Positions 13,624 to 63,414 of a stretch of DNA of 64,000 nucleotides are shown here, piece by piece. The position numbers and the translations under genes are program-made. The stretch comes from a candidate division SR1 bacterium (lineage in GTDB: Bacteria > Patescibacteriota > Gracilibacteria > Absconditabacterales > Absconditicoccaceae), in NCBI GenBank assembly GCA_026397475.1, contig JAPLUT010000002.1, positions 62,001-126,000 of the forward strand, read 5' to 3'. Under the pieces are notes generated by a model. That model worked only from the letters and a program-made list of their open reading frames with translations. It was not told the DNA's origin and did not search any database. Numbering within the stretch: the stretch's first letter is position 1; every line of letters begins with the position of its first letter.

Positions 13624-15012
13624 TTATTCATTATTCATTCTTAATTTGCTTCAAATAGAAAGTCCTGCGATCATCCCCGTAGCTCGCGAAGATTGTAGAT
13701 TAAATCATCAAGTAAATCCGTCTATATTTAATATTTCTCAAGCAAAGTAGAGTCATTTGCAAAGAGTTGATTCCATGGTTTCATTGTTAACTTCATTGGT
13801 ATCTACGCCTCCTGCAGTGACAAATTCATCGCCTGGTCTGCGAGATATTGCATGTAAGGGGAATCAGTTTCACAATTTATTTGCTAAAGATTCGCGAGTA
13901 CTTTTGGTTAACTGAATAGCATGCTGTTTAGCATCTATTTTTTCAAAACGCAAAAATTCTTCCACAAAACGTTTAGAGAATTTCTGTCATAGAATCGTTT
14001 GCAATTCTTTATTCGGCTGCTCTTTCATAGCAGTTAATAAAAAAGTATTTCGTCGATTAAAATCATAGTCTGAATACGCTTGTACGAGTATTTCTAAAGA
14101 ATTAGTTTCATCTATCTTTTCAAATGCTGAATAGGCCGAGATAACAAATGTTGCAGGTCAAGAAATACCAAAATGCGTCAATAAAATTCATCACATAGCA
14201 GTCAATTTTTTTTCGTGAAGTTTAATATGCAACATCGCATTTTTAAAACTCAATCAGGAAAGGGGATGCGTCCAAGTTTCTTTGGTCAAAAAACTATTCA
14301 AAGAAGGTCAGAGAGGAGTGATAGTATGTCAGCACTCACGCGCAAAAGTATATCCATCTCAACTCGATCAGGTATGAGCGTATGCACTTCATCAGGTCGT
14401 GAGTATCACATAATCAAATTCGTATGACGAGATATCACTCACTAAAGTAAATTTTTTATTTTTTTTAATAGATACAATACTCTCTCCAAAATGAAGAATA
14501 ACTTTTTCACACACGACTGCTTTCGAAATATTTAATCACTTCATTTCATTCGTGCTTAAATTTTCTCAAGTCGTCGGTATTCCTCAATCATCCAAAAAAA
14601 CTTCGTTTCACTCGTTTTTTGGGTGGTTGAGAGTATTAGAAAACATTTTTTCAAAAATTCATACAATATCTGATCCTTTATTTGATACGGGGAAGATACG
14701 ATGATCAGCTTCTTCTTTGAGCTTTGCTCCATGATCTTCAAACCGATTTTTTATTTTTCTAGGTCAAAACTTTGAAAAAGTATATTTCAAAAATTCCGCA
14801 CCTCTAGGATAATTTTTTAGTAACTCATTATTTTTATACATCCCGGTAGTGACATTACAACGTCATCATCAGCTGATAAGCACCTTTGCTCAGAGCATTT
14901 TATTTTTTTCAAAAAGATGAATCTCTGCATCAATATTTTTCAATTCACTCAATGCAGCAGCAGCCATCATGCCTGCCGCTCATCATCAGATTATTGCTAT
15001 ACGAGCTTTCAT
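13624..15012 (-). CDS. BaiN/HI0933-family NAD(P)/FAD oxidoreductase with an in-frame repeat insertion
   Basis: A 462-aa flavoprotein. Residues 5-14 (IAIIGGGAAG) form the GxGxxG dinucleotide site, and its three consecutive Gly codons are all TGA. SGGGRCNVT (~51-59) again uses TGA TGA TGA. Other family landmarks are RIFPVSNKGSDIV, ITPLGPSLNSF, GLSFKNAM and AGGVDTNEVN. Residues ~128-167 (NHPKNEGNEVFLDDGGIPTT onward) are the translation of the 120-bp repeat at 14511-14630, which is also found in the HAD gene at 62.5 kb, so this stretch is an insertion in a surface loop. The exact reaction is unknown for most of the family. Confidence 0.85.
14511..14630. repeat. 120-bp in-gene repeat, copy A (RPE-like)
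   Basis: It matches 63001-63120 over exactly 120 positions with 13 differences and no indels. Both copies are read on the minus strand in the same frame, giving NHxKNEGNEV-x-LDDG-x-IPTTGE-x-L-x-TNEMKGL. Inverted arms are visible: ACGACT/AGTCGT, and on the minus strand CCAAAAAAC/GTTTTTTGG around GAGTGAAACGAA. Confidence 0.9.
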
Positions 15013-15116
15013 AGGTAAGTATAAGAGAATAAGAATAGTGAGAATATAGTGATTTGATTTTAGATTTCAGCAGTAAATGAATTCAACGCTCCAGGTCATT
15101 CCCTTTTCTGGTACCC

Positions 15117-15181
15117 GTCATTCCCGCGAAAGCGGGAATCCAAGCTTAATAGTATGGATTCCCGATCAGGTCGGGAATGAC
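15117..15181. repeat. Palindromic repeat element (double hairpin)
   Basis: GTCATTCCCGC-GAAA-GCGGGAATCC is followed after 14 bp by GGATTCCCGA-TCAGG-TCGGGAATGAC. Each half is a hairpin, and the outer arms GTCATTCCCG/CGGGAATGAC also pair. It has the form of REP/MITE-like elements. The sequence is clearly more GC-rich than its surroundings. It lies 79 bp upstream of the trhO start. A single-hairpin relative lies inside uvrD at 57.45 kb. Confidence 0.85.
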
Positions 15182-15259
15182 GTTAGTACGCAATTTCTTG
15201 AAATTCACAACGATATCCGTATAAAATCTAACATACAAATTTTAGATGTTATAAAAATA

Positions 15260-38390: not shown

Positions 38391-38665
38391 ATACATAAAA
38401 AATAAAAAAGAACATCTACTATATAATGGATTTGAAAGTAAAATGCAAGAAGGACTTTAATGCTAAATTTTGGCAAGAAATAGAGAAAAAAATAGAACTG
38501 TAAATTAGTTTAGAAAAGTAATAGAATAAAAAAAAGTATATAATTGCAATGGTATTGGGAGATTAAAACCCTACCTCTTTTAAAAAAAATATTATTGTAT
38601 TCGTGAGTTTTGTATGTTTCTATAGTATTTACTGTTGAAGTTTTTGAGGAATTCAATAAAAGGAG
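38391..38665. other. Divergent intergenic region before rnpB
   Basis: AT-rich, 275 bp, no gene. TATAAT occurs at ~38536 on the plus strand. A weak hairpin GGTATTGGG/CCCTACC with a following TCTTTT (~38549-38580) is seen. It should hold the rnpB promoter and the promoter of the ung operon on the other strand. Confidence 0.4.
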
Positions 38666-38792
38666 CAGGTCCAAATATTGTATAGCCCCACAGCAATGTA
38701 GGGAGGAAAGTCCTGACACCATAAAACAGGTAACATCTAACGGATGTTGAATACCGAAAGGGTAAATGAAAGTGCCACAGAAACGTAAACTA

Positions 38793-39102
38793 CCCCGCAC
38801 CAAATTTAGACTTAGCCCACAAAATGTACTTTGTATACCTACTTTACAACGAAACAACTAAAAAGTTCTATGTTTGAGTTACTCAAAATATAGAAAAAAG
38901 ATTGATAGAGCATGTCGCTTGAAAAAATCAATCTACAAAATATTGTTGTAAGGATCGAAAACTTGTGTATTATGAATATTATAATCACAAAAGCGATGCG
39001 TATACTAGAGAGAAAAAGCTAAAACATCATGGTAAATGATTTATCTCGTTAAGTCCAGGATTAGCAATACATTAGATGATTTAGCCTAAATTTGGTGCGG
39101 GG
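38793..39102 (+). mobile_element. Inverted-repeat-bounded insertion in rnpB
   Basis: CCCCGCACCAAATTTAG (38793-38809) and its exact reverse complement (39086-39102) flank 276 bp that hold one GIY-YIG ORF and little else. The arms extend the P12 stem position of rnpB. No group I intron core (P, Q, R, S elements) was seen. The inner arm words TACCCCGCACC and GGTGCGGGGAAA recur at 39199-39249. Confidence 0.7.
38824..39075 (+). CDS. GIY-YIG nuclease domain protein inside rnpB
   Basis: An 83-aa single-domain protein. The N-terminus MYFVYLLYNETTKKFYVGVT provides the GIY..YIG pair in the form YVYLL...FYVG (Gly is TGA), then NIEKRLIEHVAG (conserved Arg), YYEYYNHKSDAYTREKKLKH (catalytic Glu in REKKLK) and a basic tail. 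It matches UPF0213/YhbQ-type small GIY-YIG nucleases. Because it lies wholly within the P12 hairpin of rnpB and between perfect inverted repeats, a homing-type or transposon-like origin is inferred. No ribosome binding site is evident. Confidence 0.85.
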
Positions 39103-39199
39103 AAAAGATGCAACGCGAGGATGATCGCTTCGGCGCGCTACCTCTACTCAGCTTCCACGATGTGGATTCGAGTGGTAAACCATACCTGGTGCAAGCTTA

Positions 39200-39246
39200 C
39201 CCCGCACCTTTTCTTACAGATTATATTTTTAAGAAAAGGTGCGGGG
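39200..39246 (+). repeat. Second CCCCGCACC/GGTGCGGGG hairpin in rnpB
   Basis: CCCCGCACCTTTTCTTA (39200-39216) and its perfect reverse complement (39230-39246) form a 17-bp hairpin with a 13-nt loop in the 3' half of rnpB. The outer 9 bp plus flanks (TA before, AAA after) equal those of the P12 insertion arms; the inner 8 bp differ. Confidence 0.85.
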
Positions 39247-39412
39247 AAAGTGCAATACGTTGGCTCTAAGCCGACATAGATACATTATACAACACGACAG
39301 AATCAGGCTTATCATTTGGACAAATTACATAGAACAACAGAAAATAGAACGATTGAACGATAAGTGACATCCTTCATCGTTCCAAGAATGCATCGTTCTT
39401 CTTGATCTAAGT

Positions 39413-39484
39413 AGGGCCGTAGCTCAGCGGTAGAGCGGAAGTCTCCAAAGCTTCGCGTCGAGGGTTCAACTCCTTCCGGTCCTG
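39413..39484 (+). tRNA. trnW: tRNA-Trp (anticodon CCA)
   Basis: The cloverleaf is complete: acceptor AGGGCCG/CGGTCCT with one G.U, D-stem GCTC/GAGC, anticodon stem GAAGT/GCTTC with loop CTCCAAA, T-stem GAGGG/CCTTC with loop TTCAACT, and discriminator G as in bacterial tRNA-Trp. CCA is not encoded. The CCA anticodon decodes UGG only, consistent with UGA being used for Gly rather than Trp. Confidence 0.95.
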
Positions 39485-39491
39485 GTGTAAA

Positions 39492-62533: not shown

Positions 62534-63298
62534 TTACAATATTTCCAGCAACTGTTGCAAAGTAGAAATTGAGATATAAGCATCACAATATTTAATTCAT
62601 TCAGAATTTCTATTCAGATGAACTGGAGCTATTCCACAACGTTTTGCTCACTGAACATCAGAAGATAAACTATCACCAACCATAAGAATTTGATCTTCAT
62701 GATATCAAGAAATATTTTTTAAACAATCAAATATTTTTTTGTCAGGCTTAATCAATCATACCTCACAAGATAGGACCTCATAATGGAAAACATGAGGCAA
62801 AAGGATATTCAGTGGTTCAATATAAGGCTGCGCGAGATTAGAAATAGCTGCTATTTTATAGCCTCTATTTTTTAATTCAGACAAAACAGAAGTAACTTCT
62901 GGGAAAAGAGAAACAGAATCAATTTCATTACGAAGATTTTTATAAAAATCATTCAACTGAAGACGTATCGTTCATTCAGGAAATTGAGAAGAAAATTTTC
63001 ACACGACTGCTTTCGAATTTTTTAATCACTTCATTTCATTTGTGTTTAAAATTTCTCAAGTCGTCGGTATAATTCAATCATCCAAAAGAACCTCATTTCA
63101 TTCGTTTTTTTGGTGGTTGAATATATCTGAAAGAATTTCTTCGATAGATTTATTTGAAGTCAGAAGAATTTTTTTTAATTCACGCTTCTTATCAGAGACT
63201 CACAAATCAAAAAAAAGCTGGCTATAAGCCATATTTCCATTCTCTATACTAAAGCAGGTATCATACAGATCAAACGCTATCAATTTTTTCTCTTTCAT
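62534..63298 (-). CDS. HAD-superfamily hydrolase with an in-frame repeat insertion
   Basis: A 254-aa haloacid-dehalogenase-type phosphatase. Motif I is LIAFDLYDTCF (Asp10, Asp13), motif II IAAISNLAQPY, motif III GLIKPDKKIFDC, and motif IV MVGDSLSSDVQGAKRCG. The cap region holds residues ~62-101 (NHQKNEGNEVLLDDGIIPTT, then GEILNTNEMKGLKNSKAVV), which are the translation of repeat copy B at 63001-63120 and match the insertion in the BaiN-like protein almost residue for residue. The substrate is unknown. The gene's stop is 6 bp from the convergent 417-aa gene. Confidence 0.88.
63001..63120. repeat. 120-bp in-gene repeat, copy B (RPE-like)
   Basis: The partner of 14511-14630: 107 of 120 positions identical, no gaps, and the same frame on the minus strand of its host gene. 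Four TGA-Gly codons are at identical positions in both copies; other Gly positions differ. Confidence 0.9.
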
Positions 63299-63414
63299 TA
63301 CAGTACCTCAAGATAAATACAAAAGAATATATAGATATTCCATTTTATTTCCACATTAGTATCATACTACCAAATTATTCATTATTCATTATTAATTTTT
63401 AATTATTTTAAACC

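Follow-up and report, generated by a model that had tools for sequence, protein, structure and literature searches.

Results

The RNase P RNA gene is interrupted in one hairpin and retains its core

RNase P RNA is a near-universal ribozyme that is usually encoded by a single-copy gene. In the stretch of 64,000 nucleotides analyzed here (the window, on contig JAPLUT010000002.1), this gene, rnpB, is interrupted in its P12 hairpin by an element in which a long inverted repeat encloses a small GIY-YIG nuclease gene, and a second, gene-less palindrome sits in the P16/17 hairpin (Table 1). The window belongs to a candidate division SR1 genome (G000) of 1.17 Mb in 8 contigs that is 99.57% complete; the evidence base as a whole consists of assembled genomes, mostly draft. 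G000 reads TGA as Gly, with long ORFs emerging under code 25, which is named after SR1 and Gracilibacteria. The tRNA-Trp gene follows rnpB in G000 and in two congeners, G001 and G005, and the three rnpB loci are therefore orthologous.

Table 1. Features of the interrupted rnpB locus (coordinates are those of the window).
Feature	Coordinates	Strand	Basis
rnpB, RF00010 type A, interrupted	38667..39327	+	full-length covariance-model match, the sole match in the genome
P3 hairpin, unoccupied in G000, occupied by the orthologous element in G005	38686..38703	+	alignments, G005 sequence
Left arm of inverted repeat = P12 5' strand, CCCCGCACCAAATTTAG	38793..38809	+	17-bp stem in fold
Inserted element CACC...GGTG, 300 nt, at the P12 tip	38798..39097	+	boundaries inferred from compact congeners and G005
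GIY-YIG nuclease gene, 83 codons, code 25 (three TGA = Gly)	38824..39075	+
Right arm of inverted repeat = P12 3' strand, CTAAATTTGGTGCGGGG	39086..39102	+
Second palindrome, gene-less, in P16/17; CACC...GGTG at 39205-39241	39196..39250	+	arms CCCCGCACC/GGTGCGGGG
tRNA-Trp (CCA), 3' of rnpB	39412..39485	+	same order in G000, G001, G005

The RNase P RNA model aligns end to end (model positions 1-367; 85 bits, E 3.5e-26), placing the whole insert between the two strands of P12. The score falls short of the RF00010 gathering cut-off of 100 bits, which is only partly due to the insert, because the compact rnpB genes of two congeners also score below 100 (88 and 93 bits). When the interior of the insert is omitted, G000 keeps 82/85 (96%) of the pairs in a consensus structure built from uninterrupted relatives, with G000 and G005 excluded from its construction, and G005 keeps 83/85 (98%); these are as numerous as in the uninterrupted sisters, and all five core motifs tested are present in both. 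Judged by these retained pairs and motifs, the ribozyme core looks intact despite the insertion. A covariance-model search of the 99.57%-complete genome found no second rnpB. What the earlier note had read from the letters alone, an RNase P RNA with its universal elements in order and, in P12, an 83-codon GIY-YIG gene enclosed by a perfect inverted repeat of 17 bp, is confirmed here. Neither of the two outcomes that it named as refuting came about: both halves align to one RNase P model, and no second intact copy turned up. Two features had escaped it, namely the alternative code and the P16/17 palindrome with its CCCCGCACC arms. As for the proteins that might act on such an RNA, G000 encodes an RNase III, and no RNase P protein (rnpA) was found at E<=1e-3 with the Pfam model PF00825 over the whole genome, which may reflect divergence, an assembly gap or true absence.

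Anatomy of the inserted element

The arms of the inverted repeat are complementary at 17/17 positions, and the P12 region folds with -84.8 kcal/mol (z = -8.1 against shuffles) into a structure with an uninterrupted 17-bp terminal stem. The outer part of this stem, CCCCG/CGGGG, is probably native, as judged by comparison with sister species: the copy in G000 begins at CACC within CCCCG/CGGGG, resembling the uninterrupted P12 of G001, and the P12 copy in G005 begins at CACC within TCCAG/CTGGA, resembling the uninterrupted P12 of G003 and G007. As the same CACC start lies inside different native stems, we infer that CACC and GGTG are the two ends of the element and that it is seated at the apex of the native stem, its palindrome being CACCAAATTT...AAATTTGGTG. 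Removal of the element and of the 37-nt P16/17 palindrome leaves, by arithmetic, 324 nt, near the 332-342 nt of the sisters. The sequence CCCCGCACC occurs four times in the window, all within rnpB, against 0.01 expected.

Several familiar kinds of insertion were considered and set aside. The group I/II intron reading was rejected, as no Rfam intron family, group I, group II or other, matched at E<=1 over 38600-39450. An IS transposon does not fit, since the GIY-YIG gene is the sole ORF between the arms and the alignments with congeners reveal no visible target-site duplication flanking the insert. Nor is the rnpB palindrome a CGTC-tagged REP, its termini being CACCAAATTT...AAATTTGGTG. A genome-wide repeat was likewise rejected: of the three occurrences of CCCCGCACCNNNTT in the genome, two are the P12 arms, and within the family the AAATTT palindrome is seen in rnpB only.

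The nuclease gene is open only under the alternative code and is conserved as a protein

The ORF between the arms is open under code 25 only, for it contains three in-frame TGA codons. One of these encodes the conserved Gly (G18) of the 'YIG' motif, here YVG, so that the gene is unreadable with the standard code, and with a TGA codon in the catalytic motif it escapes standard annotation. The product matches the GIY-YIG domain PF01541 with 53 bits (cut-off 22.6; E 4.4e-14), whereas the match to TIGR01453 stays below its cut-off (30 bits vs 56). Across 14 sequences, Y5, Y16, G18, R26, H30, E63 and K67 are invariant, and the predicted set of catalytic residues (two Tyr, Gly, Arg, Glu) is complete. 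Between the G000 and G005 genes, the differences over 73 aligned codons number 14, 7 and 27 at the first, second and third positions, respectively, giving a dN/dS of 0.21 by simple count, and all three TGA-Gly codons are conserved. By these counts, the protein appears to have been under purifying selection during some or all of the period since the two lineages split. The ATG is not preceded by a good ribosome-binding site, and solved structures gave no significant match to the nuclease. Its relatives are few: a scan of 84,980 genomes recovered the G005 copy as the sole close relative of the gene, the nuclease tree offers the pairing of G000 with G005 as its only informative grouping, and the best relative in viral contigs reaches 41%.

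Sister species carry empty and differently occupied sites

In seven congeners, the orthologous sites are empty: rnpB is compact (332-342 nt), and its P3, P12 and P16/17 hairpins are short. The gene within rnpB has no counterpart in seven of the nine species of the genus. The situation differs in G005 (contig CAJBLF010000021.1), the closest congener, whose rnpB core is 91% identical to that of G000 outside the inserts. Its rnpB is interrupted in P3, where GTATAGCCCCGCACCAAATTTATA ... TAAATTTGGTGCGGGGAGGAAAG surround an orthologous gene with a product 66% identical to the G000 protein, and the arm cores of the P12 element of G000 and the P3 element of G005 are identical. The Rfam match wrongly sets the 5' end of the G005 rnpB at the second arm, whereas the actual 5' strand, TTGGTCCAAATATTG, precedes the insertion and is found at L039:173. 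In P12, G005 holds the palindrome alone, with no gene (CCAGCACCAAATTTGTA ... TATAAATTTGGTGCTGG), and the P16/17 palindrome (CCCCGCACCTTTTCTTAC ... GAAAAGGTGCGGGG) is shared by G000 and G005 but by none of the other seven congeners. In the wider family, the form GCACYAAATTT..AAATTTRGTGC is found in 2/49 genomes, always in rnpB, once in P12 of G005 and once in P16/17 of G063, a member of another genus whose P12 carries a short palindrome remnant, AGCACCAAACTTTAGTGCT; the gene itself has no close homologue in G063.

Thus, homologous copies occur at P12 in G000 and P3 in G005, with empty sites elsewhere, as befits a mobile element. This lends support to the earlier note's idea of a mobile element in a tolerated loop of an essential RNA, including the empty site that it expected in sister genomes, with the difference that the orthologous element of G005 lies in P3 and not in P12. 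Its appeal to classical homing, in the sense of sequence-specific spread from allele to allele, found no backing, as there is no intron match and the insertion position differs between species. The element combines insertion at a helix tip, terminal complementarity that extends the helix (the 17-bp stem on P12) and empty sites in congeners, as intervening sequences (IVS) of structural RNAs do; its host is rnpB and its ORF a GIY-YIG gene, in place of the rRNA and S23p ORF of the known cases. Among the matches listed for 353 genomes of the class, which are best matches and may miss further weak-scoring cases, and in 40 re-searched genomes, no other rnpB is near 661 nt, the longest being 508 nt.

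Other sequences at and beside rnpB deserve mention. In G161, from another family of the class, a long perfect palindrome (CCCCGCACCCTTCAATC...) at the P3 position of rnpB (L091:148-210) contains the 9-mer CCCCGCACC of the element; it could be an old insertion or just a long P3 of the usual kind. The long P3 palindromes of L091 and L097, both from other families, were not counted as further cases, as they may be ordinary long P3 helices. In G005, L039:884-925 consists of a partial tRNA-Trp start (AGGGCCGTA) and a palindrome (CCCGCCTTTGGTGGG), followed by an intact tRNA-Trp, and in G001 a GIY-YIG gene lies between intact and altered copies of tRNA-Trp (L035:849-1257). The region of rnpB and tRNA-Trp looks like a hot spot.

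Small GIY-YIG genes across the family and other repeats

At E<=1e-4, G000 has two further small GIY-YIG genes, both beside tRNA genes: those at L068 (C2:11686-14892) and L078 (C3:228586-231777) adjoin tRNA-Lys(CTT) and tRNA-Leu(TAG), respectively. Next to these are incomplete copies of tRNAs with a short GC palindrome (TCCCGCTTTAGCGGGA; TCCCGATAGAATCGGGA) in place of the anticodon hairpin. We surveyed 31 small GIY-YIG loci from 36 genomes of the family. Eleven of the 31 lie within 200 nt of a tRNA gene, against 1 of 150 random placements, and two lie in rnpB. Repeats of the GTCATT type stand on both sides of 13 of the 31, in 12 of these as an inverted pair, compared with 0.5% of random placements being flanked on both sides. 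Flanking inverted or direct repeats at p<=0.01 accompany 22 of the 31 loci; the control, random placement of windows that include coding DNA, somewhat overstates these enrichments. At L054-L061, L064, L066, L072 and L076, all in other genomes of the family, small GIY-YIG genes lie between inverted GTCATT... repeats that resemble CGTC-tagged REPs.

The window holds further repeats of its own. One of ~160 nt and ~83% identity (14506-14622 and 62996-63112, both on the minus strand) lies in frame within two unrelated ORFs (13624-15234 and 62534-63343) and codes for KNEGNEVxLDDGxIPTTGExLxTNEMKGLxxSKAVV, in kind like the protein-coding palindromic elements of Rickettsia. Two REP-like palindromes at 15095-15185, GTCATTCCCGCGAAAGCGGGAATCC and CCCGATCAGGTCGGGAATGAC, reach into the predicted 5' ends of a divergent ORF pair, so the start codons listed for both are probably too far upstream.

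Discussion

Comparison with known insertions

The nearest precedent comes from the rRNA genes of Candidate Phyla Radiation (CPR) bacteria: GIY-YIG ORFs are found there in non-intron insertions, and most of the insertions in these genes lie at the apex or base of a stem-loop (PMC11270868). Those insertions share with the rnpB element the broad bacterial group and a GIY-YIG ORF outside any intron (PMC11270868), but the latter has RNase P RNA as its host and a defined terminal palindrome, occupies different helices in sister species and has identified gene-less derivatives. It is of the same kind, with a new host RNA, defined ends and evidence of a change of helix. The IVS of the 23S rRNA of Coxiella burnetii, which bears an S23p ORF, has a 28-bp terminal stem and is excised by RNase III (PMC4990558), is comparable in another respect. 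In both it and the rnpB element, an ORF lies in a stem-loop with long terminal complementarity, the host is an essential single-copy RNA, the site is the tip of a variable helix, and the distribution is sporadic. They differ in that the IVS pairs rRNA with a four-helix S23p protein and the present element pairs rnpB with a GIY-YIG nuclease, in that excision by RNase III is demonstrated for the IVS and putative for the rnpB element, and in the stem, of 28 bp against the 17 bp before the first mismatch here.

The homing endonucleases of group I introns of the I-TevI type have the same catalytic domain family as the rnpB-borne protein, which differs in having no intron, no DNA-binding extension and a length of only 83 residues. 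Repetitive DNA is tolerated within rnpB elsewhere: Vioque is said to have described STRR repeats in rnpB of heterocystous cyanobacteria in 1997. STRR are tandem heptamers with neither gene nor palindrome. CGTC-tagged REPs, which have been reported to lack a dedicated transposase, and the palindromic elements of Rickettsia resemble the rnpB element as short, mobile-looking palindromes (PMC3733652), although the rnpB palindrome differs from the CGTC type in its sequence (CACCAAATTT) and its confinement to rnpB. In keeping with the earlier note, which was aware of no such case, the searchable literature, which is mainly open-access and includes few preprints or subscription papers, yielded no bacterial rnpB with a nuclease ORF.

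A proposed selfish intervening sequence in a ribozyme gene

We posit, with somewhat better than even confidence, that the element is a selfish intervening sequence, a palindrome around a one-domain GIY-YIG gene that resides on the tips of rnpB hairpins. The comparison of G000 with G005 suggests that it moves between hairpins without breaking the essential ribozyme. Its arms would extend the host helix and leave the core to fold normally. RNase III could then cut the long stem and release the gene-bearing RNA, and a two-piece RNase P RNA would be held together by the remaining helices, as in the case of 23S rRNA intervening sequences. The nuclease, for its part, would nick or cut hairpin-forming rnpB sites that are free of the element, which would then spread through repair templated by an occupied copy or arm. 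The gene-less palindromes could be deletion derivatives that persist either because they are harmless or because they block further cutting. Since the gene lies within rnpB in two species only, G000 and G005, the direction, rate and number of such movements cannot be fixed from them, and a single transfer plus recombination would suffice for the pattern.

This last point leads to the reading in which the element is a settled passenger: it would have entered rnpB once, recombination between palindromes would account for the difference between P12 and P3, and the nuclease need not act at all. The CCCCGCACC core present in three hairpins would be enough for template switching or gene conversion, and gene-less palindromes do exist at P12 and P16/17. 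Nevertheless, we regard this as unlikely, for the gene shows signs of purifying selection and a complete set of active-site residues, and some other cause would be needed for identical palindromes at three hairpins in two genera and nowhere else in the genomes; passive recombination is a weaker alternative to nuclease-driven spread. The fate of the RNA is a separate matter. The giant P12 might simply be tolerated, with a mature RNase P RNA of ~660 nt from which nothing is excised. P12 is peripheral and very variable, and even plastid and cyanobacterial RNAs could not be aligned with one another in P3, P12 and P15-17 (PMC4264200), so that this is a serious possibility, if one we would not bet on; a long perfect stem is a typical substrate of RNase III, which G000 encodes, and excision is known for 23S rRNA intervening sequences built in the same way (PMC4990558). 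A giant uncut P12 is compatible with the same mobility, and our degrees of belief in these readings therefore overlap and need not add up to a whole.

Two further readings seek the explanation in the host. If a protein-only RNase P were in use, rnpB could be a decaying pseudogene, insertable because it is dispensable. The missing RNase P protein of the usual family and the RF00010 score under the cut-off might hint at this, but compact relatives likewise score near or below the cut-off, the core motifs and 96% of the consensus pairs are intact, G000 and G005 are 91% identical outside the inserts and the gene is kept in all seven compact congeners; decay is accordingly very improbable. We give even less credence to recruitment of the ORF as a host protein, for instance an RNase P accessory subunit made from its own RNA gene. 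While the missing rnpA match and the purifying selection could be cited in its favor, seven of the nine species of the genus do without the ORF, and the genes related to it are located by tRNA genes and palindromic repeats, the kind of place where selfish elements are found.

Implications

Returning to the selfish intervening sequence, we tentatively consider, as a conjecture more doubtful than the account of rnpB itself, that it exemplifies a general class: small GIY-YIG nucleases that would recognize hairpin or cruciform DNA, spread palindromes, settle at rnpB, tRNA and probably rRNA genes, and mobilize REPs of the CGTC type. The association of GIY-YIG genes with the latter is a lead, not proof. 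If the reading of the rnpB element is true, it would mean that rnpB tolerates the invasion of several of its helix tips with no loss of function, and that RNase P RNA might work in nature as two pieces. The link of GIY-YIG nucleases to palindromes and RNA hairpins would, in turn, make it testable which enzyme spreads the CGTC-type repeats.
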